Shown piece after piece: positions 662 to 31,162 of a stretch of DNA of 42,576 bases. A model generated the notes under the pieces. It was given only the letters and a program-made list of their open reading frames with translations, was not told the DNA's origin and searched no databases. The stretch is from a virus, in IMG/VR virus record IMGVR_UViG_3300025087_000150, positions 1 to 42,576 of that record, one strand, 5' to 3'. Position numbers and translations under genes: made by a program. The number at the start of each line of letters is the position of its first letter. The stretch's first letter is position 1.

Positions 662-1453
662 ATGAAAAAAATAATTATAACAGGGGCGGGTTCATTAGGG
701 AGAGGTTTTATAGACTATTTTCTTAGAGATAAAAATAATCATATTACCGTTATTGATAATAATGAGTGGTCCCTGGCTGAATTAAAAGATATTTCCCGCA
801 ATAATAAGAATTTAAAACTTATTTTAGATGATTGTAAATTTGCACCAGAAGGAGATTTATTAATTCATACTGCAGCTTACAAACATGTTGACTTAGTTGA
901 GGATAACCCAAATAGTTCCTTTGAAAATAATGTAGTTAATACACAAAAATTATTTGTACATAATACAACTAAAAAAAAGATATTCATTTCCACAGATAAG
1001 GCGGTATACCCCAAAGGAGAATATGGAAAACAGAAGGCATTAGCAGAAGATTATGCTAGAAGATGGGGTGGGGTAATAGTTCGCATGGGTAATTTAAAGG
1101 GAAGTTCGGGGAGTATTTACCCACTCTGGGAAAATCAGATTTTAGAAGATAAACCACTTACTATCACTGATTGGAAAATGAAAAGATATTTTATAGATAT
1201 ACAGGAAGCCGTTGAAAAAATAATGAATTTATATCCCAGAGCGAAACCAGGAGATATTATAATCCCTGATTGTGGAGAGGAAGTATTATTAAAAGATATA
1301 GTTAACCAAGTTTTAACAATACATAACAAACCGTTAGACTACCCAGTAAAGATAATAGGCATCAAGAAGGGAGAAAAATTAAGAGAAAGTCTAACTTGGG
1401 TTCATGAAAAATGCATATACACCGATAAGTTCGGTTCAATATATGAATCTTAA
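662..1453 (+). CDS. NAD(P)-dependent sugar-nucleotide dehydratase/epimerase, FlaA1/PseB/CapD-like
   Basis: The 263-residue protein has a Rossmann start TGAGSLG (residues 7-13), then HTAAYKHV, STDKAV (110-115) and YGKQK (121-125). In the PseB/FlaA1 polysaccharide-biosynthesis family the Asp, Lys and Tyr of these last two motifs are the catalytic residues, and all are present. It would act on a UDP-HexNAc in the cytoplasm as a 4,6-dehydratase or C5-epimerase. It is shorter than typical family members (about 330 residues), so the C-terminal part of the substrate domain is reduced. The start ATG has no Shine-Dalgarno sequence, only an A/T-rich leader. It is the first gene of the sugar module. The exact substrate is inferred. 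Confidence 0.82.
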   Translation: MKKIIITGAGSLGRGFIDYFLRDKNNHITVIDNNEWSLAELKDISRNNKNLKLILDDCKFAPEGDLLIHTAAYKHVDLVEDNPNSSFENNVVNTQKLFVHNTTKKKIFISTDKAVYPKGEYGKQKALAEDYARRWGGVIVRMGNLKGSSGSIYPLWENQILEDKPLTITDWKMKRYFIDIQEAVEKIMNLYPRAKPGDIIIPDCGEEVLLKDIVNQVLTIHNKPLDYPVKIIGIKKGEKLRESLTWVHEKCIYTDKFGSIYES

Positions 1454-1467
1454 CAACTGGAGATAAA

Positions 1468-1740
1468 ATGGAAAAGGGAGTAGAGGAAGTGCAGGTGAAA
1501 TGTCGATGCGGTGGTGATGTTATAATCACTATCATTGAAGAAATGAACTACGACCCCAAAAGAGGAATCCAATGGGGTGGCATTGCCAAGTGTGGCAAGT
1601 GCCATGGTGCATACTACTTCGTATTCTATGTTGGAGAACCTTTCAAATTTGTTCCACGATACGGAGAATCTGTAATGGAGGTGAACAAAAATGAAGTTCG
1701 GAATAATCGGAGGAAACGGCGGAGTAGCACGAGTTCATAA
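1468..1740 (+). CDS. Small zinc-ribbon protein, function unknown
   Basis: The 90-residue protein has a CRCGG motif near residue 12 and CGKCH near residue 42, spacing typical of a four-cysteine zinc ribbon. The last 17 residues are basic (RNNRRKRR) and overlap the start of the next gene by 50 nt. The overlap suggests translational coupling with the oxidoreductase. Without further domains it could bind nucleic acid or be a partner of the sugar enzymes; I do not recognise it. Confidence 0.65.
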   Translation: MEKGVEEVQVKCRCGGDVIITIIEEMNYDPKRGIQWGGIAKCGKCHGAYYFVFYVGEPFKFVPRYGESVMEVNKNEVRNNRRKRRSSTSS

Positions 1741-2473
1741 AGAGAGCATTAAAATCGTTGGGGGGGAATATCTCATTTGTGATATTGCGGGAGTATCCGC
1801 AGACTTCACAAACTATTTGGAGATGATTCCTCTGGTAGATGTGGTGGTAATTTGTACACCCAACTACCTTCACTATTCAATGGTGGTTGATGCTCTGAAC
1901 GCTGGTAAGAAAGTAATCTGCGAGAAACCCCACGCCCTTTCGGCAACTGAGGTTGGGAGAATCCTACGAGGAGATACGGCAAAGAATTTTTACCCCGTGC
2001 TTCAACTGAGGTACAACCCCGAACTGCAGGAACTAAAGGAAAGGTATTCCAGATTTCACTCAGTGGAAATGCAAATACAAATCCACAGAGCGGAGCCTTA
2101 CTTCCAAGGGTGGAAGGGGAAGCAGATGCTTTCGGGAGGGCTTCTTTTCAACATCGGGATTCATTACTTTGACTTTCTGAGATGGTTTTTCGGAGAGTAT
2201 AAAGGACAGACAGAAACCAGTTACCACTGGCGGAACTCCCAAGGGGTTTTACTTCTTGAGAGGGCGGTGGTCAAGTGGCATCTGAACATTGAATCTCCCC
2301 CAGACCAGCAGAAACGGATTGTTAAGATTGATGGAGATGAAATAAATCTCTCCTACAATTTCCAAAATCTTCACCAGGAAATTTATAAGGAGGTGGTAGC
2401 AGGTGTACCATCCTCGGTGAAGGACATTTACGGCACTTATGCTTTAATAGAGCATCTGATGTCAGGGGGCTAA
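1691..2473 (+). CDS. Gfo/Idh/MocA-family oxidoreductase, WlbA/WbpB-like
   Basis: The 260-residue protein starts with an NAD-binding FGIIGGNG, followed by CTPNYLH (55-61), the family motif CEKP (77-80) and GGLLFNIGIHYFD (149-161). The last motif resembles WlbA/WbpB, which oxidises the C3 hydroxyl of UDP-GlcNAc-uronate during synthesis of 2,3-diamino sugars. The catalytic Lys of EKP and the His of GIHYFD are present. It is somewhat shorter than bacterial homologues (about 310). A GGAGGTG ribosome site precedes the ATG. With the 2-epimerase at 9307 it supplies two steps of such a pathway; the remaining steps would have to come from the host. Family is sure, substrate is inferred. Confidence 0.82.
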   Translation: MKFGIIGGNGGVARVHKESIKIVGGEYLICDIAGVSADFTNYLEMIPLVDVVVICTPNYLHYSMVVDALNAGKKVICEKPHALSATEVGRILRGDTAKNFYPVLQLRYNPELQELKERYSRFHSVEMQIQIHRAEPYFQGWKGKQMLSGGLLFNIGIHYFDFLRWFFGEYKGQTETSYHWRNSQGVLLLERAVVKWHLNIESPPDQQKRIVKIDGDEINLSYNFQNLHQEIYKEVVAGVPSSVKDIYGTYALIEHLMSGG

Positions 2474-2510
2474 ACACCCCCTTTCAGACACATTAGTAAC
2501 TTTATATAAA

Positions 2511-4178
2511 ATGCCAAAATTAAGTATCGTAACACCAGCTTATAACACAGCAGAATTTATTTCTGACTATATTAAATCTCTACAAGACCAGGACTTTCAG
2601 GACTGGGAACTTATTGTAGTTGATGACGGTTCTAGTGACGGAACATACGATAAGGTTATTGAGATGCAGAATAAAGACCCTCGTATATTTGCGGTAAAAG
2701 AACCAAAGAATGTAGGCGCTTCTGCTGCTAGAAATCATGGAGCAATATCAGCAACGGGAGAATATATTATGTTTCCTGCTTCTGATGGTAAGTTTTATCC
2801 AGGTGCTCTCACTAAACTTTTGAAACCAATGGAAGAAGACCCAACTATTGATTTTGTTTATGGTGGGTATAGATTTTATAACCCCAAAACAAAACAGGAA
2901 CAACCATTTATCGCCGAAGAATTTGACCCTTACTTTTTAAAACAATATAACTACATAGATGGTACTTTCCCAATGAGAAAGAAACTATTTGATAAGACGG
3001 ACGGATTTGATATCCACTGTAAATCTCTTAATGATTGGGAATTTTGGCTTAATGCAGTTATTAAGTGTAAAGCAAAAGGACACTGGATTCCAGAGATGTT
3101 TTTTGATACTCGCTTTCCACATAAAGGTGGTCTATCTTGGGATAGCTCTCACAACTGGGCAGATAGAGTTGATTATATAAAAAAGAAATATAACATAGGC
3201 TACAAGGACATCTGTGTAACTTCGCTAGGCGCGCCCCATCACGGCAAGAAGATAGCTAAGGTTCTCAATGCAGACTTTAAGCCGTTTCCCCTAATGAAAC
3301 TAGACAAATCAAAATATAAAATGATTTATTCTATTGGGTTCTACCCAAATATACTTGAGCAACAGGCGATGGCTTTGTCATACCCCCCAGTGTTTGATGA
3401 TGATGGGAACATAAAAGAGGACAGTAAGCCATTTAAGGGGAAGAAGATTGCTCACTGGATTGGTTCTGATATATGGCAATTAATGAATATGATTTTTGTA
3501 GAAGGAATCCGTTTCAAGGGGTTATTAAATGACAAAGAAAGTATTACAAAAAACATAGTGGAGTTTGAAAAAACAAAAGAAGAGATGGAATATATGGGGG
3601 TTAAAGAACTTGATATGTTTCCACTCCCAGTTCTTGACCCAGTAGAGGTAACCCCGTTACCCGAAAAGTTTACAGTGGCTGTCTATGCACCTAAAGTAAA
3701 TAGGGAGGTATATAACTTTAATTTTATGTTGTCGCTTGCTCAAGCGCTTCCTGATGTTGATTTCAAATTCTTTGGTGCAGTAGAAGAACAGGGGACGATA
3801 GGGAATATAGAGTATATGGGTTATCTTGATAAGGAAGGTATGAATAAACTAATTAAAGAAACCTCTTGTATTATCCGCCTAACAGTCCACGATGGGTTCC
3901 CATTATCTCTTGCAGAGTGGATTATTGCAGGTCGCCACGCTATCTTTCAGATTAAGCAACCATATATGGAACACTTGCAAATAGTGGGAAATGAAGCGAC
4001 TGATTTATCTCATGCCGTTGACTTGGTAAGAAAGTTAAAGAAATATCCGCTTAATAAGCTAGGCTCTCTATACTACAAAAAGTTATGCGACCCAGTAGAA
4101 TATAAGGAAAAGATATATAGTTATTTGGAGGATAAAAATGAGACAAAAAAAAGTGAAACAATTAAGAAAACAGTTTAG
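2511..4178 (+). CDS. Two-domain glycosyltransferase (GT2 plus GT-B-like domain)
   Basis: The 555-residue protein has an N-terminal GT2 (GT-A) domain, about residues 1-230, with IVTPAYNTAEF and VVDDGSSDG (36-44). The usual metal-binding DxD is replaced by FPASDG. A second domain from about residue 235 has GAPHHGKKIAK, HWIGSDIW and an LTVHDGFPLSLAEW segment, which looks like the nucleotide-sugar-binding half of a GT-B enzyme. A single polypeptide with two transferase domains could add two sugars in sequence. The start lacks a Shine-Dalgarno sequence. The 3' end overlaps the next small ORF by 41 nt. The acceptor is unknown. Confidence 0.85.
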   Translation: MPKLSIVTPAYNTAEFISDYIKSLQDQDFQDWELIVVDDGSSDGTYDKVIEMQNKDPRIFAVKEPKNVGASAARNHGAISATGEYIMFPASDGKFYPGALTKLLKPMEEDPTIDFVYGGYRFYNPKTKQEQPFIAEEFDPYFLKQYNYIDGTFPMRKKLFDKTDGFDIHCKSLNDWEFWLNAVIKCKAKGHWIPEMFFDTRFPHKGGLSWDSSHNWADRVDYIKKKYNIGYKDICVTSLGAPHHGKKIAKVLNADFKPFPLMKLDKSKYKMIYSIGFYPNILEQQAMALSYPPVFDDDGNIKEDSKPFKGKKIAHWIGSDIWQLMNMIFVEGIRFKGLLNDKESITKNIVEFEKTKEEMEYMGVKELDMFPLPVLDPVEVTPLPEKFTVAVYAPKVNREVYNFNFMLSLAQALPDVDFKFFGAVEEQGTIGNIEYMGYLDKEGMNKLIKETSCIIRLTVHDGFPLSLAEWIIAGRHAIFQIKQPYMEHLQIVGNEATDLSHAVDLVRKLKKYPLNKLGSLYYKKLCDPVEYKEKIYSYLEDKNETKKSETIKKTV

Positions 4179-4278
4179 AAAAATAGGTGTTGATAAAAAG
4201 ATTGTTTTGAAACATAAAGATAAACCAGATGAAACTATCAATAACTGGAGGCGTTTTAAAAATGATAAAAAATCCTAA
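4138..4278 (+). CDS. Small basic protein, 46 aa
   Basis: A short ORF begins with a well-placed TTGGAGG ribosome site seven bases upstream of the ATG. The product is very Lys/Arg-rich (MRQKKVKQLRKQF at the N-terminus) with no recognised domain. It overlaps the end of the two-domain transferase and the true start of the next transferase. The good ribosome site and the overlap at both ends suggest a coupled translated gene, but it could be only a translational relay. Confidence 0.5.
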   Translation: MRQKKVKQLRKQFRKIGVDKKIVLKHKDKPDETINNWRRFKNDKKS

Positions 4279-4999
4279 ACTATCAGCGTATATACCAACA
4301 TACAACAGAGTAGTGTATCTTCCTGAAACTATTAATTCTATTATTAATCAGTCGTATAAGAATTGGGAATTGATAATTGTTGATGATGGCTCTACCGATT
4401 CAACCCCAGACCTCATAGATTTCTATGTTAAAAAGTACCCAGATAAGATTAAGTATTTTAGACGCAAGAAAAATATGGGAATTGCGTACACACGCAATGA
4501 AGCAATCTCAAAGTGTACAGGTGATATTATTGTGACCTGTGATTCTGATGATGTTAATATGTATGGTCAGTTTGGTAAGGGGAAAATGGAACGCTTTGCA
4601 GAGATTGCTAAGTTCTTTGAGAAGAATGATGTTGATATAATCTACTCTAGCTGGCTAATCTGCGATGCTCAACTAACCCCAGTAGTATACAGGGAAACAC
4701 CTAAAGAATTATTGAAAGACGGTAAACTAGATATTGAAAAACTTATGGAGTTTCAGGTTATAGCCCAACCAACCCTAGCATTTAAGAAAAAGGTTTGGGA
4801 AAAGATACCTTACAACGAGAAACAGAAATGCGGGGAAGATTGGCAGTGGCTTATTAATATTGCTCGTTCTAATTTCAAATGGGGACAGATAAGAAAACCT
4901 CTTGTTAAATACCGTCAACACCCTAATCAAGTTAGCATATTAAAAAAGAAAGAGGTGGACGATTATGACAACAAAGCGAAAGCAAAGTCTTGGAAATAA
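4262..4999 (+). CDS. GT2 family glycosyltransferase
   Basis: The 245-residue GT-A transferase has SAYIPTYNR, IIVDDGSTDSTPDL and the metal-binding CDSDD, then a catalytic-base region CGEDWQW. All key GT2 features are intact. I chose ATG 4262 because TGGAGG lies eight bases upstream; the in-frame ATG 4229 lies inside the preceding small ORF and has no ribosome site. It overlaps the next gene by 35 nt. It probably transfers one sugar of the glycan made by this module; donor and acceptor are unknown. Confidence 0.87.
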   Translation: MIKNPKLSAYIPTYNRVVYLPETINSIINQSYKNWELIIVDDGSTDSTPDLIDFYVKKYPDKIKYFRRKKNMGIAYTRNEAISKCTGDIIVTCDSDDVNMYGQFGKGKMERFAEIAKFFEKNDVDIIYSSWLICDAQLTPVVYRETPKELLKDGKLDIEKLMEFQVIAQPTLAFKKKVWEKIPYNEKQKCGEDWQWLINIARSNFKWGQIRKPLVKYRQHPNQVSILKKKEVDDYDNKAKAKSWK

Positions 5000-5843
5000 G
5001 GACATCACTGTTATTGTATTGGTCCATTATGAAACTGACAAAACAATTAAATGCCTAGAATCACTATATAACACTGATTACCCATTTAAATTATTAGTTG
5101 TATGTGATGGTGCAGACGACTACCTTAAAAAATATCTTAAAGACAATGTGGTAGGTAGGCTGGTAATTAACAAAAAACACTTAGGAGTTGTTAAAACTTG
5201 GGCGGTAGCAGAAAAATTAATAGACACAGACTTTTTCTTCTTTGCTCATTCTGATATGGTATTTGAGAAAGATTGGTTGTCTGAGCTAGTCAAAAAATAT
5301 GATTCATTAGAAAATCCAGGGTACATATTGCCTATTAATCTTAAACCGCCAGGATTTCTGATATTCAACTTTCTTATAGAAACCAAACTATATAAATCAA
5401 TACCAATAGATAAAAAATATAAATTACATTATTTAGACTTTGACTGGTACCAGCAGTTTAAAATAGAGTATCCTAATTTATGTGGGATATTATGTGAAGA
5501 AGCCAAAATATATCACGACACTCAAACAACGATGATAATGGTAAGTGACATAGATGGGTGGGGTGATGATGCTAAAGAAGATGCAAAATATTATTATAGT
5601 AAATATAATGATGACCCCCATCCAATATATGGGGAGCCCGTGTATAAAGAAGAATATTTAAAAACACATAAGTGTAAATGGAGAGAAGTAAACGCTGTAC
5701 ACCCCAAAAATTATTACATTCTTCCAAGTGGCTCTTATGCCATCCATTACTATCAATGTCCAATCTGTAATAAAAAAATAGAAAATGAAGAATTTAAAAG
5801 ACAAAAAGATACTCTGCTGCTGGAGGGAGAAATTAACATATAA
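4965..5843 (+). CDS. GT2-like glycosyltransferase, divergent
   Basis: The 292-residue protein begins with TVIVLVHYETD and VVCDGADDY, the GT-A nucleotide-binding start, then FFAHSDMVFEKDWL, where HSD takes the place of DxD and the following residues match the GT2 pattern. The C-terminal part ends with a YYQCPIC plus CNKK pair that may bind zinc. It overlaps the next ORF by 59 nt. It acts in the cytoplasm on an unknown acceptor. Confidence 0.8.
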   Translation: MTTKRKQSLGNKDITVIVLVHYETDKTIKCLESLYNTDYPFKLLVVCDGADDYLKKYLKDNVVGRLVINKKHLGVVKTWAVAEKLIDTDFFFFAHSDMVFEKDWLSELVKKYDSLENPGYILPINLKPPGFLIFNFLIETKLYKSIPIDKKYKLHYLDFDWYQQFKIEYPNLCGILCEEAKIYHDTQTTMIMVSDIDGWGDDAKEDAKYYYSKYNDDPHPIYGEPVYKEEYLKTHKCKWREVNAVHPKNYYILPSGSYAIHYYQCPICNKKIENEEFKRQKDTLLLEGEINI

Positions 5844-6744
5844 ACAGGCGGGGGACAAACTCTATTATAATGTTGTTGGTGACCACGATGGATATGAAAC
5901 AAAACATTTCCTTCCAGCACTAAAAGAGATATTTAAAAAAGTAGATTTTCTACCACTAGAATACACTAATGATACTACCCTCTACAACGCACTACAATCA
6001 CGCAAATACGATTACTTTTTATTTCAGGCATATCGGGACGAAATAGCACCAGAAACTCTCCTGTGGGCTCGTGACGAGTTAGAAACAATAACTGTAGCGT
6101 GGAACGGAGATGATGAACACCAGTGGGACATTAAGGATAGTTGGGCAGGAAATAAAATACAGCATCTATTCAACTGGAATATCACCACATATAAACCCGA
6201 ATTATATTCAGAACCAGTTATTAAAACTATATGGGGTACTAATGAAAAATTATTTAAAAATAAGAATTTAAAAAAAGATATAGACATTTCATTTTGTGGA
6301 GTAGCTAATCAGGATAGACCAGATAGGGTTTATTGGCTCAACACCAAGTTAGTCTCACAAATGAAGAAGATTGAGACTTTCGGAGTGGGATGGTCTAATG
6401 TATTATCCAATGATGAGTATGTGGATATATTTAACAAATCAAAAATAAATATAAATTTTAGTAGGAATGAAGGGGTGCTACAAATCAAAGGTCGGGACTT
6501 TGAAATTCCTATGTGTGGAGGGTTTTTAATAACAGAATATAATCCAGAGTTAGAAAAATATTTTAAGATAGGAAAAGAAATTGAGACTTACAGGGACAAT
6601 AAAGAACTACTTGACAAGATTATATTTTATAGCAATAATGATAAAAAGAGAGAGAAGATTGCAAGAGCAGGTTATAGAAGAACCCAAGAGAATCATACTT
6701 ATAAACAGAGATTTTTAGAAATATTTAATAAATTGGAGGAATAA
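5785..6744 (+). CDS. CgeB-like / GT1-type glycosyltransferase
   Basis: The 319-residue protein resembles the CgeB / glycosyl transferase group 1_2 family. It has an N-terminal half with KYDYFLFQAYRDE and VAWNGDDEHQWD, a short DISFCGVANQDR, then SKININFSRNEG, GRDFEIPMCGGFLITEY and a C-terminal ETYRDNKELLDKI followed by the GYRRTQENHTYKQRF tail typical of these enzymes. The start has only a weak ribosome site and lies inside the previous gene, so it probably depends on coupled translation. Confidence 0.82.
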   Translation: MKNLKDKKILCCWREKLTYKQAGDKLYYNVVGDHDGYETKHFLPALKEIFKKVDFLPLEYTNDTTLYNALQSRKYDYFLFQAYRDEIAPETLLWARDELETITVAWNGDDEHQWDIKDSWAGNKIQHLFNWNITTYKPELYSEPVIKTIWGTNEKLFKNKNLKKDIDISFCGVANQDRPDRVYWLNTKLVSQMKKIETFGVGWSNVLSNDEYVDIFNKSKININFSRNEGVLQIKGRDFEIPMCGGFLITEYNPELEKYFKIGKEIETYRDNKELLDKIIFYSNNDKKREKIARAGYRRTQENHTYKQRFLEIFNKLEE

Positions 6745-6748
6745 AAAC

Positions 6749-6895
6749 ATGGAAGATGAACTAATTGCTACTGACCCAGAGGGTCAAGACGAAGAAATTG
6801 TAGAAGAAGAGCCATTGACTGAACTTGAACCAAATATAGATGAAGTCGATGATAGTGTCAAGGCAGCAAACACAACAGATAATTTAGAAATATAA
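6749..6895 (+). CDS. Small acidic protein, 48 aa
   Basis: An ATG follows the TTGGAGGAATAAAA ribosome site at the end of the previous gene. The product is strongly acidic, with DEEIVEEEPLTELEP in the middle and no cysteines or membrane segment. It is not recognised. Its position between two transferases and good ribosome site support translation. It may be a small adaptor or simply a filler gene. Confidence 0.55.
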   Translation: MEDELIATDPEGQDEEIVEEEPLTELEPNIDEVDDSVKAANTTDNLEI

Positions 6896-6914
6896 TTAAA
6901 AATGGAGGTGTATT

Positions 6915-7079
6915 ATGGCTAAAAAACAAGAAGTTGAAGAGGAGATTGTGGAAGTAAAAGAAAAAAAAGAAGATAAAAAAATATCATTTACTCTTGCTGA
7001 CTGGGATGAATATATGAGGTCTGGCAATACCACGGGCATTGTTAAATCGTTCCCAGATTTTTTAAAAGAGAGGGAATAA
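6915..7079 (+). CDS. Small charged protein, 54 aa
   Basis: A GGAGGTG site lies five bases upstream of the ATG. The N-terminal half is a charged Lys/Glu helix (VEVKEKKEDKK) and the C-terminal half, SFTLADWDEYMRSGN then SFPDFLKERE, looks folded. No family was recognised. It ends three bases before the next transferase start. Confidence 0.55.
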   Translation: MAKKQEVEEEIVEVKEKKEDKKISFTLADWDEYMRSGNTTGIVKSFPDFLKERE

Positions 7080-7082
7080 TTA

Positions 7083-7829
7083 ATGAAAAAAGTAGGGATT
7101 ATTTTAGTTACATATAACGGACTAGGCTACTTAAAACAAGGGATACCTTCATTATTGAAGACCAAGTATCCTGATTTTCATTTATACATTTTTGATAATG
7201 GTTCTACTGATGGGACAACTACTTATTTACGCAGATTAAAGGATAAAAGGATTAGTCTAATTAAAAACGGCGACAACGTCGGTATGAACGGCTATCCCAT
7301 AGTTGCTACTGCGGTATCTCGTAAATGCGATTATATGGTTACTATAGACCAAGATGTTATTCATTTCCCAGATGGTTGGTTAATGCATTTATTAAATGCT
7401 TTCCAATCATATCCTGGTATGGGATACCTTGCTACTAATGTGGTCCAGAATAATTTTACTAATGGTTGTATCTGGTCTGACTATACTTTTGAAGAACAAG
7501 AACATGCGGGATATACTTATATGTTTGGGAATAAATATTACCTCACTGGTGGTTGGTGTACTATGACTAGCAGTAAGATATATCAGGAAGTTCAAGGTTT
7601 TAGATATGAGAGAGATGAACAGTTTTTTCAGATAGACGGGCCATACTGCGACGCGCTAAACCATCATGGGTATAAATGGGCTATTTTAAAAGATGTAAAA
7701 GTATTGCACGCCTGCGGACCCTATTGCGCTAGAAAGTATGGGGAGTGGAACGAAAAAATTAGGGGTATCTCCTACGAAGATGCCATTAAGCAATATAGCA
7801 AAAGAGATAAAAGACTAACTTTTAGATAA
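7083..7829 (+). CDS. GT2 family glycosyltransferase, rhamnosyltransferase-like
   Basis: The 248-residue GT-A enzyme has GIILVTYNGLGYL, FDNGSTDGT and the metal motif TIDQDVIHFPDGWL, followed by LTGGWCTM. The pattern of a DNGSTDG start plus DQD is common in rhamnosyltransferase-like GT2 proteins, but donor specificity cannot be assigned. All catalytic elements appear intact. Confidence 0.87.
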   Translation: MKKVGIILVTYNGLGYLKQGIPSLLKTKYPDFHLYIFDNGSTDGTTTYLRRLKDKRISLIKNGDNVGMNGYPIVATAVSRKCDYMVTIDQDVIHFPDGWLMHLLNAFQSYPGMGYLATNVVQNNFTNGCIWSDYTFEEQEHAGYTYMFGNKYYLTGGWCTMTSSKIYQEVQGFRYERDEQFFQIDGPYCDALNHHGYKWAILKDVKVLHACGPYCARKYGEWNEKIRGISYEDAIKQYSKRDKRLTFR

Positions 7830-7842
7830 CAAGGAGGTTAAA

Positions 7843-8226
7843 ATGTTTAAAAAGAAAATAACTAAAGTACCAGAAGGGAAAACAACAAATCGTATTGTAG
7901 CTATTAACACTGCTATTGTATCTATAAGACAGATTGAGGCAGATAAAAAAGTATTTGACGAAGCACAAAAGATTTTGGGATTAAAGAAAGAAATTGCCAA
8001 ACATTATGCTGCAATTGATGAACATGTAAGGGCAATTGATGAGCATGGTAAACAAATTGAAGATGTCTATGCTGTTGGTATAAAATTACCAATAGAACCA
8101 GAGGAAGTAAAGTATAAAATAGATAAGAATACAGGTGCTGTTTTATTCTTTAATGCTAAGGGAGAATATGTCGGAACAACTTATGATTTAATTGAAAGGC
8201 AGAAAGGAGAAACAAATGGCAAATAA
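7843..8226 (+). CDS. Hypothetical coiled-coil protein, 127 aa
   Basis: An AAGGAGG site lies upstream of the ATG. Residues 20-80 are a continuous helix with two near-identical turns, AIDEHVR and AIDEHGK, suggesting a coiled coil. The C-terminal part KNTGAVLFFNAKGEYVGTTYD looks like a small beta hairpin. It overlaps the next gene by 11 nt. Its function is not recognised; it could be an oligomerisation or scaffold subunit for the transferases. Confidence 0.6.
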   Translation: MFKKKITKVPEGKTTNRIVAINTAIVSIRQIEADKKVFDEAQKILGLKKEIAKHYAAIDEHVRAIDEHGKQIEDVYAVGIKLPIEPEEVKYKIDKNTGAVLFFNAKGEYVGTTYDLIERQKGETNGK

Positions 8227-9193
8227 AGGAAAAATATTTATGACAGGTGCGAGTGGGTTTATAGGTAGTTATATGGCGGAGAAATTTTTAGAAAAAGGAT
8301 ATAAACTAGCGATTCTTCTGCGCCAGACCAATAGACTAAACTACCCTGCCGTTCAGAGATTATTAAAAAACTATGATATAGATGTTTATTATGGGACTAT
8401 AACAGATAGACACTATATGGATTTTGCAATGAAGGATTTTCAACCAGATTATGTTATTCACTTAGGAGCGATAACCCCAGTAGCATACAGTTTTGACCAC
8501 CCAGTAGAGGTATTTGAAACAAACGCAAATGGCACAATTAACCTAGCGGAATCAGCCAGAAGGAATTGTCCACATCTAAAGAAATTTATTTTCTCATCTT
8601 CTATGGAAACTTATGGATATAACCCGAAGAGAGAACCAGTAGTTGAAACAGATGAACAAATGCCAGGGGCTCCTTATGGGGTGGCGAAGGTAGCAGCAGA
8701 GAAGTATCTTAAAATGATGAACTTTGCTTATGGTTTTCCAAGTATCTGTTTTAGACAGACGAACTGTTATGGTCGTAGAGAAAATGATTACTTTGTGGTA
8801 GAAGCTATTGTTACCAAGATGTTAAAAAATCCAGAAACTATTAACTTAGGCGCTGGCGACCCAACTAGAAACTTTATATGGATAGATGACTTAGTTGATT
8901 TGTGGGTAGCAGCAATAGAATCAGAAAACCCAGAGATATTAGGGGAATCATTTAATACTGGTCCAGCCAATGGGATAACAATCCAAGAGCTTGCTGATAT
9001 TTGCGCAGAGAAATTGGATTGGCGAGGAGATATAAAATGGAACACTATGCCGAGAAGACCAGGAGAATTGTCTTATCTAAATAGTAATTGTGATAAAGCT
9101 AAAAAATTATTAGAGTGGGAACCAAAGGTCGGGCTATCCGAGGGATTGGATAGAGTAATAAAAATTTGGAAGGAAAATCTCAATGTTAATTAA
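8216..9193 (+). CDS. NAD-dependent sugar epimerase/dehydratase (extended SDR)
   Basis: The 325-residue protein has MTGASGFIGSYM (Rossmann, residues 9-20), HLGAIT, IFSSSMETYG (the catalytic serine region) and PYGVAK, which is the YxxxK pair (Y154, K158). NWIDD-like FIWIDDLVDLW follows in the substrate domain. It belongs to the GDP-mannose dehydratase / UDP-glucose epimerase superfamily; the substrate is unclear. ATG 8216 was chosen over 8192 because AAAGGAG lies directly upstream and it produces a clean N-terminus. Confidence 0.87.
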   Translation: MANKGKIFMTGASGFIGSYMAEKFLEKGYKLAILLRQTNRLNYPAVQRLLKNYDIDVYYGTITDRHYMDFAMKDFQPDYVIHLGAITPVAYSFDHPVEVFETNANGTINLAESARRNCPHLKKFIFSSSMETYGYNPKREPVVETDEQMPGAPYGVAKVAAEKYLKMMNFAYGFPSICFRQTNCYGRRENDYFVVEAIVTKMLKNPETINLGAGDPTRNFIWIDDLVDLWVAAIESENPEILGESFNTGPANGITIQELADICAEKLDWRGDIKWNTMPRRPGELSYLNSNCDKAKKLLEWEPKVGLSEGLDRVIKIWKENLNVN

Positions 9194-9365
9194 TCTAACC
9201 GTAGAACAACAACAGATGTTGTTAAATATGTTATCAACCGCAACTATAAAAGTTTCCGATTACCCAATGATAAAAAAATTAGCAGACACATTAAGCAAAC
9301 CAATAGATGAAAAAAAGAAAGATAATAACGGTGGTGGGGACAAGACCCAACCTGACAAAACTTAG
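9183..9365 (+). CDS. Small hypothetical protein, 60 aa
   Basis: This short ORF overlaps the epimerase end by 11 nt and the 2-epimerase start by 59 nt. The sequence is helical with a hydrophilic Lys/Asp/Gly tail and begins MLINLTVEQQQMLLNML. A GGAAGGAAAA site precedes the ATG. It is not recognised. Coupled translation with the following gene is likely because that gene has no ribosome site of its own. Confidence 0.5.
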   Translation: MLINLTVEQQQMLLNMLSTATIKVSDYPMIKKLADTLSKPIDEKKKDNNGGGDKTQPDKT

Positions 9366-10197
9366 TCCTGATATTCCTTGTGATGTTATAAACACAGGTC
9401 AGCATTATGATTTTGAAATGGATGGAATATTTATTAGAGATTTAGGAATTAAACCACCTAAGTGGAATCTTGGTGTTACAGAATTAGACAAAATGATATT
9501 GGGAATAACAGAAATACTAAGAAAAGAAAAACCTAGTTTGGTATTAGTCTATGGGGATACCCGCTCTACCCTTGCAGGAGCAAGAGCAGCGACTTCCATC
9601 GGTATCCCCGTAGCTCATATAGAAGCAGGGTGTAGAAGTGGGGACAGGAAACTAATAGAAGAAAAAATAAGAATAGAGGTTGATGCTCTTTCTAGTTTAA
9701 AGTTTTGTCCTACTCCAGATTGTTTAGAAAATCTTAGATTGGAAGGAAATAATATTAATTCTTTCTGGGTTGGCGATGTTCTTTATGATACATACTTGCG
9801 CAACAGAAAACACGATGGTTATGTCTTTGTAACTATCCATAGAGAAAATAATATAAATACAGAGAAAAGATTAAAGCAAATTATAGACCACATAGCAAAA
9901 CATAAAGATGTTATATTTTCACTTCATCCTCATACAAAGAAGATGATTAATAAATTTAAAATAAAAATACCTTCACATATTAAGGTTATAGAGCCAATTT
10001 CATACAAAAAGGTACTAAAGCTCCTCAGGAAAGCAAAACTCGTTATAACTGATTCTGGCGGCATACAGAGGGAAGCGTTCTTTTCTGGCACTCCATTTGA
10101 GATATTAAGAGCAAAAAATGAGTGGGGGGTACATCAATTTGGTGATGGTACAGCAGGTAAAAAAATAAATAAAATAATAAATGACTACCTCAAATAA
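9307..10197 (+). CDS. UDP-GlcNAc 2-epimerase-like, WecB/WbpI family
   Basis: The 296-residue protein has VVGTRPN (9-15), NTGQHYDFEMDG, the nucleotide site YGDTRST (82-88), HIEAGCRSGDR (104-113), TIHREN (176-181) and TDSGGIQREAFFSGTP (248-263). These are the conserved motifs of non-hydrolysing 2-epimerases, which convert UDP-GlcNAc (or the 3-acetamido uronate in WbpI) to the manno form. It is shorter than the usual 360-380 residues, partly through a compact N-terminal loop, and the EE-x-NR motif reads EEKIRIE, a change in a usually conserved position. The start is inside the previous ORF. Confidence 0.82.
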   Translation: MKKRKIITVVGTRPNLTKLSPDIPCDVINTGQHYDFEMDGIFIRDLGIKPPKWNLGVTELDKMILGITEILRKEKPSLVLVYGDTRSTLAGARAATSIGIPVAHIEAGCRSGDRKLIEEKIRIEVDALSSLKFCPTPDCLENLRLEGNNINSFWVGDVLYDTYLRNRKHDGYVFVTIHRENNINTEKRLKQIIDHIAKHKDVIFSLHPHTKKMINKFKIKIPSHIKVIEPISYKKVLKLLRKAKLVITDSGGIQREAFFSGTPFEILRAKNEWGVHQFGDGTAGKKINKIINDYLK

Positions 10198-11305
10198 AAA
10201 AAAGATTAAAGTATTTATGCAACACGCAGAGCAATCAGCAGTGGGATATTATCGTATTATCCGCCCTGCTATGGCTCTCAATAAGATGAAGGAGATACAA
10301 GCGAGTACATTTCCTTTTTCTTCTTTTAATAAACCACCCGATGTTAGTATAGATGATGTTGAAGACATTGTGGCTAAACACGACTTACTTTTATTTTCAA
10401 GAGTTGATAACCCTAATGGGGTTGTTTTTATTAAAGCAATAAAAGACCAAAGGTATTATAAAAACAATATTCCTATTTTAATTGACGTAGATGATTTGGC
10501 CAAATTTACTACCTCTGATAATCCTGCATACATTTATTATAAGCCTGGTGCTGATTGCAACCCTACTATGTGGGGAGAGGAACAGCTTAAATATGCAGAT
10601 GGGTGGATTACTACTTCTAAATACATTGGTAAAATGTTAAAAGACATAAACCCAAACTATCATGTTATTCCTAATTGTGTTGATTTTGATTTAATAAAAC
10701 GCTGGGAAAAGCCAAAACCTCATACCGATATTAGAATAGGCTGGGCTGGTGCCATGGCTCATCAAGAAGACCTAGAGATAGTTAAAAATGTAGTACCTAA
10801 AATATTAGAAGAAAACCCTAATGTTACATTTTATTTCTTTGGTTTGCTACCAGGTTGGGCGCATAACAATCCAAGAATAAAGCATATTAAGTGGATGAAC
10901 TTTGGGAACTATTTTAATGAGTTATCTAAATTGGGGTTAGATATAGCAATAGCCCCTCTCCAAGATACACACTTTAATAGAGCAAAATCAAACCTACGCT
11001 GGTTGGAATATTCTATGTTAAAGATACCCACAGTTGCTTCAAAAGTATACCCTTATGTGCAATCTATCCAAAATGGCAAGGATGGTTTTATAGTTTCTTC
11101 AGATAAGGAGTGGTATTCTATCTTGACAAAACTTGTAAAACAAAGTAAGTTTAGAGTAAGGATAGGAAATGCCGCATTTAACAGGGTAAAGCGGGATTAT
11201 AATATTGATAAATGGAAATATAAATATTTAGAGATATTCCAAAAGTATATCAAAAAGGGGGTGACAAATGGCAACAGAAGCAACCTTAATGCAGACAGTT
11301 CGTGA
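10181..11305 (+). CDS. GT-B glycosyltransferase (GT4/GT1 type)
   Basis: The 374-residue protein begins with AVGYYRIIRPAMALN, which fits the acceptor-binding domain of a GT-B fold. IDVDDLAKF and VIPNCVDFDLI mark the interdomain region, RIGWAGAMAHQEDLE starts the donor domain, and RWLEYSMLKIPTVAS corresponds to the usual E-x7-E segment. A single-domain-plus-tail enzyme of this type would transfer from an NDP-sugar. It overlaps the adaptor gene by 38 nt, which ties the sugar module translationally to the virion genes downstream. Confidence 0.86.
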   Translation: MTTSNKKKIKVFMQHAEQSAVGYYRIIRPAMALNKMKEIQASTFPFSSFNKPPDVSIDDVEDIVAKHDLLLFSRVDNPNGVVFIKAIKDQRYYKNNIPILIDVDDLAKFTTSDNPAYIYYKPGADCNPTMWGEEQLKYADGWITTSKYIGKMLKDINPNYHVIPNCVDFDLIKRWEKPKPHTDIRIGWAGAMAHQEDLEIVKNVVPKILEENPNVTFYFFGLLPGWAHNNPRIKHIKWMNFGNYFNELSKLGLDIAIAPLQDTHFNRAKSNLRWLEYSMLKIPTVASKVYPYVQSIQNGKDGFIVSSDKEWYSILTKLVKQSKFRVRIGNAAFNRVKRDYNIDKWKYKYLEIFQKYIKKGVTNGNRSNLNADSS

Positions 11306-12581
11306 TAAACTTGATGATAATTATAGACAGCAAGACGCTATTAATGATGCGGGAAATATATCCGCATCAGTAACAAATATAACCGTAGATGACGGCACCA
11401 AATTTACACCAGGAGATATTATCCAGATTGAATCGGAACTTTGTTTAGTAGAGGAAGTTCCATGGATAGTAACCTACATAAATGAAGGTGCTGATTTTAG
11501 TTCTACGGATGTTACCTTAACGGTTGTGGCAGGAACAAATATTGCAAACAATGATTATATTCAACTAGAGTCAGAAATATTACAGGTAACTGCTGGTGGA
11601 ACCACCACATCACTAACGGTAACTCGTGGTCAGATGGGAACCATGGCAACATCTCATAGTGATAAAACTGCAGTAGGGCTGGTTAATGAGATAAAAGTAA
11701 GGCGCGCATATATGGGAACCACTGGTGCTACTCACGCTAATGATATTGCTATTTATGTGATAGACCAGTATTCAAATAAAGAAATTCAACAAGCTATTGA
11801 AGATGGGATAAGAGCGTTAGGGGATAAAAATAATCCTATATTTGATGCCTTTGATAGATTCCTCTATGACGATACAGACACCTCTGCGGAGGCTCTTGAT
11901 ATTGATGAGTTAGTTTTAACAGTGACTACTGGTACAAAATTCGCAGTTGATGATATAATTCAGATTGAAAACGAGTTAATGAAAGTGACAGCAGTAAACA
12001 CTAATGATTTGACTATAACTAGAGGATACAATGGTACTGCCGCTATTGCACACGCTACTACCTTAACCATCTATATTCTAACCCAGACCAGCGATACTGT
12101 ATTTGATTATGCCCTTCCCACAAACCTATATTGGATAAATGAAGTTAGGGTTTATAATCATAAAGCAAATATTGCTAACACTGGAATATTGGATTACACC
12201 AGATTAACTGGTTGGAGATTTGACCAAGATAAACAGAGACTACACTTTGATTATAATATTGATAGTGATAGATTAATTTATATTATAGGTGCATCTCGTG
12301 TTGCTGTCCCCGCGACAACCGCTACAGAAATAACCGCAGCAGACTATATTGAAGAACTTATAACTCTCTATGCAGTAATACAACTTATGGGTAAGCGCAT
12401 GGCGGTATATAATAACTCTGCGAAATACTCTACAAAGGTAGCTGAGGCAGGTGGTAGTTCAGAGTTCTTAAACACTTGGAGAATGTGGAGAGACATGCAG
12501 TCACAATACGATACTCTCAAAGATAGGTACGCATCAGGAGAAGGGAGTGTAGATATAAATATTAATAGGTATGATTTATAA
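11268..12581 (+). CDS. Head-tail adaptor-like virion protein with nested beta repeats
   Basis: The 437-residue protein has a helical N-terminus (1-30), a helical segment at 168-195 and a helical C-terminus (about 340-437), as in connector adaptors. Between them lie beta repeats: one at 216-270 (GTKFAVDDIIQIENEL...TRGYNGT) and another at 78-137 (ESEILQV...TRGQMGT). A third copy is split: its first half is at 36-63 (DDGTKFTPGDIIQIESEL) and its second half at 143-166 (RRAYMGTTGATH), with the 78-137 repeat sitting inside it. The gene follows a GGGGGTG ribosome site and precedes the nozzle-like protein. Adaptor assignment rests on architecture and position. Confidence 0.65.
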   Translation: MATEATLMQTVRDKLDDNYRQQDAINDAGNISASVTNITVDDGTKFTPGDIIQIESELCLVEEVPWIVTYINEGADFSSTDVTLTVVAGTNIANNDYIQLESEILQVTAGGTTTSLTVTRGQMGTMATSHSDKTAVGLVNEIKVRRAYMGTTGATHANDIAIYVIDQYSNKEIQQAIEDGIRALGDKNNPIFDAFDRFLYDDTDTSAEALDIDELVLTVTTGTKFAVDDIIQIENELMKVTAVNTNDLTITRGYNGTAAIAHATTLTIYILTQTSDTVFDYALPTNLYWINEVRVYNHKANIANTGILDYTRLTGWRFDQDKQRLHFDYNIDSDRLIYIIGASRVAVPATTATEITAADYIEELITLYAVIQLMGKRMAVYNNSAKYSTKVAEAGGSSEFLNTWRMWRDMQSQYDTLKDRYASGEGSVDININRYDL

Positions 12582-25958: not shown

Positions 25959-26330
25959 TTATTTTAGTTTTAGATATTTGCTAATAACCCTGATTGATGT
26001 GCTAATTCCGTGTGCTTCAAACTCCCCATTTTTATCATCTATGCCGACATATTCTGCCACATATTGCATAGCGTGAGATATTTCGTGTGCGAAGGTTGCC
26101 AATGCCACATAATAATCCAACGTTGAGTCTATTACTACAAGTGGGTGTTTATCTGGATAGCAGTTAAAAGTAAGTCCTCTTTTGTTCGCAAAGTCTTTTT
26201 CTATTGTCTTTTCTCCAACTCCAACATATTTTGATGTTGGTTTTATTAGTTCTTTCGGTGTTCCTAAATAAACTATTATTCCGTACTCTTCTGTAAAAAC
26301 TGGTATTTTTATTATCTTCATTTGTTTCAT
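25959..26330 (-). CDS. Putative zinc metallopeptidase (HEISH motif)
   Basis: The 123-residue protein has ATFAHEISHAMQYVAEY, a canonical HExxH at residues 82-86 within a helix, followed by FEAHG (E103 or E105), a candidate third zinc ligand. It is a minimal domain, smaller than most peptidases. It could cleave a host protein or regulator. The start is ATG 26330 or 26321. The motif is clear; substrate and activity are not known. Confidence 0.65.
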   Translation of the reverse strand: MKQMKIIKIPVFTEEYGIIVYLGTPKELIKPTSKYVGVGEKTIEKDFANKRGLTFNCYPDKHPLVVIDSTLDYYVALATFAHEISHAMQYVAEYVGIDDKNGEFEAHGISTSIRVISKYLKLK

Positions 26331-28626: not shown

Positions 28627-28887
28627 TTATGTTAGTTGTTGTATAATATTCTTTTTCATATCTCTCTCCTTATCCTTTCTATTCGTTAATATATCCACCT
28701 TGTCGGCAAATTCATCTGATTCCTCCTTACTCATACCAGTCACCCCCTTATCTCTTATCATCCTAGCTAAACCAGATTGAGCAACCGCTTTAATAAAACG
28801 ATATTCAATATGGTCTAGTTCTTCATCGTTGGGATAATTATCTATATTGGCTATTTCTTCACTTGTAAATTCTGTACCATCTCCCAT
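28627..28887 (-). CDS. Small acidic/helical protein, 86 aa
   Basis: An AAAGGAG site lies ahead of the ATG. The product (FTSEEIANIDNYPNDEEL; then FIKAVAQSGLARMIRDK) is helical and charged. It is the first gene after the structured leader at 28991-29228, and may be regulated by it. It is not recognised. Confidence 0.6.
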   Translation of the reverse strand: MGDGTEFTSEEIANIDNYPNDEELDHIEYRFIKAVAQSGLARMIRDKGVTGMSKEESDEFADKVDILTNRKDKERDMKKNIIQQLT

Positions 28888-28990
28888 TTTTACTCCTTTC
28901 TATAAAAGATAAATTAATATTTTCAGTTTTTCTACTTTCGGATTTTACTTTGAAAATTGCTCCAAAAAGCTCCTTAATGTGTACTCACCT

Positions 28991-29228
28991 GAGGTATCGG
29001 GGGCAGGCGACAAGTTAAAATCTGGCAATTTTGAAAACCAAATTAGTAAATCTCGCGCCCGCCCTTTAATATACCTCAACACCTACATCCGCATATTAAA
29101 ATAGACTAACGGGGGGAGCTAAACAACCCGCTAATTTTAAAAAGTAACTATTTTAATATACAAAAAAGAGACGGTCTTTATACGAAAGCTACGAGCTCGC
29201 GCACAAAGAGGATATCCGCCTCTTTTTT
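28991..29228 (-). ncRNA. Three-hairpin structured RNA candidate
   Basis: Three adjacent inverted repeats fill this gene-free stretch. Hairpin 1: 28991-28997 with 29071-29077 (7 bp) and 29001-29009 with 29056-29064 (9 bp). Hairpin 2: 29093-29104 with 29148-29159 (12 bp perfect) and 29105-29113 with 29127-29135 (9 bp). Hairpin 3: 29162-29174 with 29216-29228 (13 bp). The four imperfect pairs are G-U wobbles on the minus strand but A-C mismatches on the plus strand, which points to function as leftward RNA. A minus-strand RNA starting near 29235 would contain all three in order 3, 2, 1 and end just before the 28887 gene. No known family was recognised. Confidence 0.65.
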
Positions 29229-29241
29229 ATACACTAATATT

Positions 29242-29270
29242 TTTAAAATACCCTATTTTTTGACCGTCAA
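29242..29270 (-). promoter_or_regulatory. Candidate leftward promoter for the structured RNA
   Basis: On the minus strand TTGACG is followed after 17 bases by TTTAAA. The -35 overlaps the near-palindrome TTGACGGTCAA (29260-29270), a possible operator. The predicted start near 29235 is about seven bases before the first stem of the structured RNA. The -10 is imperfect. Confidence 0.45.
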
Positions 29271-29281
29271 TTTTATTTATA

Positions 29282-29791
29282 TTATACGCTACAACTCAAT
29301 CCTTCCCTAGTTTTTATTGCTTTTTTACAAAACTCTTTTAACTCTTCATATTTTTCTACAAAGTATTCTTGATTATGTTTTTCCATTAGTTTCAAATTAT
29401 TTTCAAAAACAACTTCATTATCTGCCAACTGTTTTAAAAACTTTTTGACCGCTCCCGTTGGCAATATTCTCTCATTTTTGACTTCTATTGCGTTTTTTCT
29501 AACTAACTCCCACCACGATAAACCAAACTTCCACAATAGACTGCTATCATTATAGCTATCACGAAAATAACCTTTTGAATACATTAAGTCAAATATTCTA
29601 GTAACTTCTTCTTGCAATGCGGAATATTTTTCTTTCATTTCATTACTTCCTTTTTCCCATAATTCTGATTGTGTTCTATAACCCATTATTATCAAAGCAT
29701 TATTTCTATTGTTACAAGCCTTTTTAAAATCACTTTCATATTTTTTCTTATTTTTTGTGTATTCACTCATTAAATATATATCTGCTCCCAT
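29282..29791 (-). CDS. Hypothetical protein, 169 aa, MGADIYL type
   Basis: The N-terminus MGADIYLMSEYTKNKKKYE resembles a family of small phage proteins that begin MGADIY, but the function is unknown. The rest is helical with a DSSLLWKFGLSWWELV segment. An AGGAGC site precedes the ATG. It ends just before the promoter at 29242-29270. Confidence 0.65.
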   Translation of the reverse strand: MGADIYLMSEYTKNKKKYESDFKKACNNRNNALIIMGYRTQSELWEKGSNEMKEKYSALQEEVTRIFDLMYSKGYFRDSYNDSSLLWKFGLSWWELVRKNAIEVKNERILPTGAVKKFLKQLADNEVVFENNLKLMEKHNQEYFVEKYEELKEFCKKAIKTREGLSCSV

Positions 29792-30442: not shown

Positions 30443-30898
30443 TTATACTGCTAAACTAAAAACTCCTGTTGTTTTCATTAAATACATCTGATTATCTGCT
30501 TCTTTTAATACCTTCGCGGGATTTAATCCGCTTGCTAATCCTATTGATACACTAACCCCGCTATTGTATATACTGCGTGCCTTTGATTCTGCTTCCCCTT
30601 GTGTTTTAAATACGATTATAAACTCATCTCCGCCTATTCTATAGCTATTTAAACCCCGTAATTGACAAGCAAGGCTATTTATTAGAATATCCCCTTGTTC
30701 GTGCCCTAGATTGTCATTTGTCCATTTGAGCTTGTTTAAATCAAGCATAACAATAGAGATATTTGAATAATTATTTTTATCAGCTTCCCAACCATTGCGG
30801 TTTTTTATACCTGTTTGAGTATCAAACAAACCAAAAGTATTATAGAAGTCTTGGTCTCTTGTCTTGTAGATATATTGTAGCTTCTTGATAATTTGCAT
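30443..30898 (-). CDS. Standalone GGDEF-domain protein (diguanylate cyclase)
   Basis: The 151-residue protein is a single GGDEF domain. It has TGIKNRNGWE, the phosphate and metal segment VMLDLNKLKWTNDNLGHEQGD (split by role: D53 for metal, N61 and D70 for guanine), the exact signature RIGGDEF (residues 87-93) and the terminal ADNQMYLMK. All catalytic residues that can be read are intact. The allosteric RxxD inhibition site is absent and there is no sensor domain. It would make c-di-GMP from two GTP if dimerised. The start has no ribosome site; a leader ORF and a structured 5' region lie upstream. Confidence 0.88.
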   Translation of the reverse strand: MQIIKKLQYIYKTRDQDFYNTFGLFDTQTGIKNRNGWEADKNNYSNISIVMLDLNKLKWTNDNLGHEQGDILINSLACQLRGLNSYRIGGDEFIIVFKTQGEAESKARSIYNSGVSVSIGLASGLNPAKVLKEADNQMYLMKTTGVFSLAV

Positions 30899-31058: not shown

Positions 31059-31087
31059 ATTTTATCTTATATTTTTTTATTTGTCAA
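31059..31087 (-). promoter_or_regulatory. Leftward sigma70-type promoter
   Basis: On the minus strand TTGACA (31087-31082) and TAAAAT (31064-31059) are separated by 17 bases. The predicted start is near 31052. The transcript would cross the DnaA box, the Shine-Dalgarno-hiding structure and then the GGDEF gene. A second TTGACA at 31101-31096 lies just upstream. Confidence 0.7.
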
Positions 31088-31134: not shown

Positions 31135-31162
31135 TTGACAGTAAAATTAAAAAGAATATAAT
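31135..31162 (+). promoter_or_regulatory. Rightward sigma70-type promoter
   Basis: TTGACA (31135-31140) and a perfect TATAAT (31157-31162) are separated by 16 bases. The -35 lies within TGTTGACA, the inverted partner of the sequence near the leftward promoter. The predicted start near 31169 places the whole 31174-31228 switch inside the leader. Confidence 0.78.

Follow-up and report, generated by a model that had tools for sequence, protein, structure and literature searches.

A strongly folded three-hairpin RNA between leftward genes of an uncultured phage, tentatively read as an intercistronic terminator and leader

Three neighboring hairpins in the genome of an uncultured virus, IMGVR_UViG_3300025087_000150, occupy a 394-base gap between two leftward genes, raising the question of whether they fold as RNA, from which strand, and what such an RNA might do for the genes around it. 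The window analyzed is the entire 42,576-base record, the first and last 127 bases of which are identical, so that it represents a complete circular assembly. By its gene families the virus is a phage, and it encodes terminase- and portal-like proteins. The gap falls within a leftward block of small genes that runs from about 31.0 to 23.4 kb, ~1.8 kb from the promoter-like site that heads these genes (Table 1).

Table 1. Coordinates of the three hairpins and of the features around them in the 42,576-base window.
Feature	Coordinates	Strand	Description
Promoter-like site	31059-31087	-	TTGACA, 17 nt, TAAAAT; head of leftward genes; 11/12 consensus positions
Upstream gene (29791)	29282-29791	-	169 aa, no known family
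Candidate competitor	29262-29268	-	GACGGUC; perfect pairing with GACCGUC (29177-29171), 3' arm of hairpin I
Hairpin I	29162-29228	-	-31.8 kcal/mol, z -6.8
Hairpin II	29093-29159	-	-16.4 kcal/mol, z -3.6
Hairpin III	28991-29077	-	-37.4 kcal/mol, z -5.4
Downstream gene (28887)	28627-28887	-	86 aa, acidic, no known family; ribosome-binding site GAAAGGAG

The initial annotation had placed three hairpins here and assigned them to the minus strand, on the grounds that four imperfect pairs would be G-U on that strand alone. The coordinates of all three were reproduced, and folding both strands, the check proposed at that time, gave -94.9 kcal/mol for the minus strand of 28985-29235 (z -7.65, with none of 1,000 shuffles coming near) versus -59.9 kcal/mol for the plus strand (z -3.17). 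The difference of 35.0 kcal/mol between the strands is larger than in every one of 1,000 dinucleotide shuffles (mean 13.9, SD 4.4, maximum 31.4), which bears out the strand assignment, the four wobble pairs (G29219-U29171, U29134-G29106, G29131-U29109, and G29060-U29005), all of them G-U on the minus strand, being weak evidence when taken by themselves. The full minus-strand fold contains 12 G-U among its 83 pairs. Folded alone, each of hairpins I, II, and III beats its own shuffles on the minus strand, whereas the plus-strand z scores reach only -2.2 to -2.5. With both strands of the genome scanned, no other place proved as stable relative to its G+C content, and 5,292 windows drawn from 84 other viral loci included none of equal stability for its composition, a comparison that slightly favors the candidate because its frame was chosen and those of the other windows were not. 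The minus-strand stability, the strand difference, and these two comparisons together lend good support to the earlier proposal of a leftward structured RNA, which we consider very likely.

All three hairpins follow a common plan of an outer stem, a bulge on the 5' side (an internal loop in hairpin III), and an inner stem. In hairpin I, a 13-bp outer stem, with arms AAAAAAGAGGCGG and CCGUCUCUUUUUU, is followed by a 6-nt 5' bulge (AUAUCC), an inner stem of 10 + 5 bp, and a 3-nt loop, and six U's lie at its 3' edge. The 13 bp originally reported for this hairpin describes its outer stem and is too small for the whole, a further 10 + 5 bp lying inside the one-sided bulge. Hairpin II has a 12-bp A+U-rich outer stem, a 12-nt 5' bulge, a 9-bp inner stem, and a 13-nt apical loop, UUGUUUAGCUCCC (29126-29114). 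Hairpin III is built from an outer stem of 7 bp, which lengthens to 9 bp when the whole element is folded, a 6/3 internal loop, and a G+C-rich inner stem. The 238 bases of the hairpins had been described as gene-free, and the gap is indeed non-coding: its open reading frames are short, and the best of them, 45 codons within hairpin III (28945-29082), scores like a wrong frame. This frame reads plausibly, but we rejected it as a gene, as it has no Pfam match and its coding score of -0.10 compares with means of 0.15 for real genes and -0.14 for shifted frames.

Searches of phages, plasmids, IMG/VR, and GTDB genomes turned up no relative of either the RNA or the phage that carries it. The DNA-similarity search covered phages and plasmids; protein searches covered viral contigs (with terminase, portal, capsid-region protein, and upstream gene), genome contigs (with terminase), and phage records (with terminase, a 692-aa protein, and the upstream and downstream genes), and each of these returned none. 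Alignment of the portal protein gave relatives at no more than 28% identity, and a tighter portal motif search had no match. Exact patterns taken from the RNA matched nothing, or once, by chance, in a G+C-rich tail region. Covariance models built from the single sequence recovered nothing beyond their own window except a weak mirror match to hairpin I read from the opposite strand and a non-significant one in a chance locus. No Rfam covariance model matched at its gathering score, in agreement with the earlier observation that no known RNA family could be recognized; the best match at lax thresholds (E 0.11), to a microRNA model, fell far short of the cut-off of that model. Four specific assignments were considered and rejected: a CsrB-like RNA, as GGA motifs are few and lie outside the apical loops; a tRNA-like RNA, no tRNA or tmRNA having been found; and a retron non-coding RNA or a type III antitoxin RNA, as neither a reverse transcriptase gene nor a ToxN-like toxin gene occurs among the leftward neighbors searched. 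As far as can be shown, the element is an orphan of a known kind, with no relatives found.

The kind to which it most likely belongs is suggested by hairpin I, which has the form of an intrinsic terminator, a stable hairpin followed by UUUUUU on the transcribed strand, although it is longer than usual terminators. Under the d'Aubenton Carafa formula, hairpin I and its U-run score +15.8. This applies to the leftward direction only, the stem on the plus strand being interrupted by an A-C mismatch. Shuffled genomes yield between zero and five positive scores each, reaching up to 17.1, and hence it is position and strand, not the score alone, that carry the argument for a terminator. No other stretch of the genome scores positive on either strand (the next best reaches -2.1), and the phage or its host may end transcription by other means. 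The terminator rules applied here, like those for promoters below, are assumed to hold for the host.

Our preferred reading, which we hold tentatively and at somewhat less than even confidence, is that the element is a non-coding intercistronic RNA of a leftward phage transcript, comprising a terminator or attenuator and then a structured leader. Hairpin I would end transcription as an intrinsic terminator, probably with partial efficiency, or would act as an attenuator, dividing the first leftward genes (the GGDEF protein gene, 30386, 30116, and 29791) from the later set, which runs from 28887 to 23416. Only read-through transcripts, or those begun at a promoter just upstream, would then contain hairpins II and III, which may serve the downstream mRNA as a compact, nuclease-resistant leader.

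The same transcript may offer an alternative partner for hairpin I. The segment GACGGUC, which begins 14 bases past the stop codon of the upstream gene, could capture the 3' arm of this hairpin ahead of terminator formation. In predicted minimum-energy folds of the growing transcript this pairing is present from 29172 to 29169, after which hairpin I replaces it; it is much weaker than the complete hairpin (-10.6 versus -38.1 kcal/mol). Shuffled upstream sequences contain at least seven such pairs in 1.4% of cases and at least five in 8%, figures that apply to a pairing sought after the fact. Because an early pairing of this sort is possible, the balance between the two structures may depend on ribosomes or on polymerase speed. 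We regard this possible switch as a lead rather than a result.

How the downstream gene might be controlled depends in part on where transcripts begin. The initial annotation had proposed a promoter at 29270-29242 and a start near 29235. The pair at these positions (TTGACG, 17 nt, TTTAAA) does not have the two most constant bases of a -10 element and is absent from the sites returned by our scan, so the proposed start draws on a weak promoter match; moreover, a transcript begun at ~29235 would lack the competing segment 29268-29262. Under the assumed host rules, the scan returned 43 promoter-like sites in the genome versus 47 in shuffles, and none between the element and 28887. A leader switch controlling 28887, also suggested at the outset, is possible, given the lack of a promoter-like site between the element and this gene and the leftward terminator score of hairpin I.

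Among known systems, intrinsic terminators and leader attenuators share with the element a G+C-rich stem followed by a U-run and an intergenic position within one transcript; a mutually exclusive upstream pairing is, in the element, a candidate feature. The element differs in its long, bulged hairpin and in the two further stable hairpins downstream; compared with leader attenuators, it has no leader peptide or known ligand, and its terminator activity is a predicted one. The putL and putR RNAs of phage HK022, which are ~70 nt long, form two stem-loops, and lie at or near an early promoter (PMC9378689), resemble it in being compact, bulged hairpins of leftward or rightward early phage transcripts. 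We rejected membership in this group on hairpin count, size, and distance from the leftward promoter-like site, as the element has three hairpins in ~240 nt, lies ~1.8 kb into the transcript, and begins with a terminator-like hairpin.

The order of likelihood places a terminator or attenuator with a leader as most likely, then a free small RNA, and then plain mRNA-end hairpins. As a small RNA, which we consider unlikely though a serious contender, the element would be cut from the operon mRNA or made from its own promoter near 29270-29235, and the 13-nt loop of hairpin II (UUUAGCUCC) would pair with the GGAGCU(A) ribosome-binding sites that precede the three nearest upstream genes, providing feedback. 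The ribosome-binding sites of 30386, 30116, and 29791 (GGAGCUA, GGAGCUA, and GGAGCUU) are complementary to this loop over 7, 7, and 6 bases, respectively, and the element is compact and stable. There is also a precedent in OppZ and CarZ of Vibrio, small RNAs derived from 3' UTRs that act on their own operons (PMC7398697) and that the element would resemble in lying downstream of possible targets, whose ribosome-binding sites its loop could recognize; the element, as a candidate free RNA, differs from them in not lying at an operon end and in its weak pairing. The loop match has a p value of 0.013 when the loop is shuffled but 0.15 when its CUCC core is kept, many other sites in the genome pair with the loop as well or better, and the whole loop is unpaired only ~22% of the time. 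The case for targeting of ribosome-binding sites by this loop is weak, and the region has no good promoter from which a small RNA could start.

The hairpins could instead have no regulatory part and shield two mRNA ends, the 3' end left by the upstream message and the 5' end from which the downstream one begins, or be the mark of a processing site. Their location between two genes of one transcript and their great stability on the mRNA strand only would suit such a role, yet three bulged hairpins in 238 bases exceed what end protection needs, and nothing equally stable occurs elsewhere in the genome. We judge this, too, to be unlikely. Rather doubtful is a new class of phage RNA, in which the three hairpins of the same plan would be jointly regulatory or protein-binding in a lineage that has no sequenced close relatives.

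Downstream expression could also be set by a cis-acting antiterminator of the put kind or by a riboswitch-like leader that binds a ligand, in keeping with the compact, bulged shape of the hairpins ahead of 28887 and with a GGDEF protein encoded by an upstream leftward gene. We consider this very unlikely: lax thresholds still bring up no Rfam riboswitch, the element is far into the leftward genes with no promoter near, and hairpins II and III come after the terminator, not before it. Least probable of all is that the hairpins arose by chance or are palindromes acting as DNA at protein sites, as could be imagined for the palindromic TTGACGGTCAA at 29260-29270 as an operator, since DNA dyads would not give a strand difference beyond that of all 1,000 shuffles.

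If real, the element would mark where an uncharacterized phage lineage uses nothing but RNA structure to set the first leftward genes apart from the later ones, and would be a small, convenient system for testing RNA control in phages that have no known regulators. More generally, one genome can be enough to single out an RNA when a wobble-pair strand bias is combined with folding energies that differ between the strands, while its function needs relatives or experiment.

Several other features of the genome were observed. The region 662-12581 (11.9 kb) carries sugar-nucleotide and glycosyltransferase genes, with Polysacc_synt_2, GDP_Man_Dehyd, Epimerase_2, and several GT2/GT1 families; these make up most of the larger genes searched, and the glycan cassette is unusually large for a 42.6-kb phage. 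The GGDEF protein (30443-30898, minus strand) is short and stand-alone, with an intact RIGGDEF motif, and its phage relatives are distant (≤40% identity). Promoter-like sites at 31135-31162 (plus) and 31087-31059 (minus) are divergent, one of them a perfect TTGACA-16-TATAAT, and the segment 31621-31860, with 12.5% G+C, begins at the 3' end of a DnaD-like helicase loader gene and is a candidate replication origin. Finally, 25959-26330 (minus) encodes a 123-aa protein without a Pfam match that carries an HExxH motif (FAHEISHAMQ) and is possibly a small metallopeptidase.
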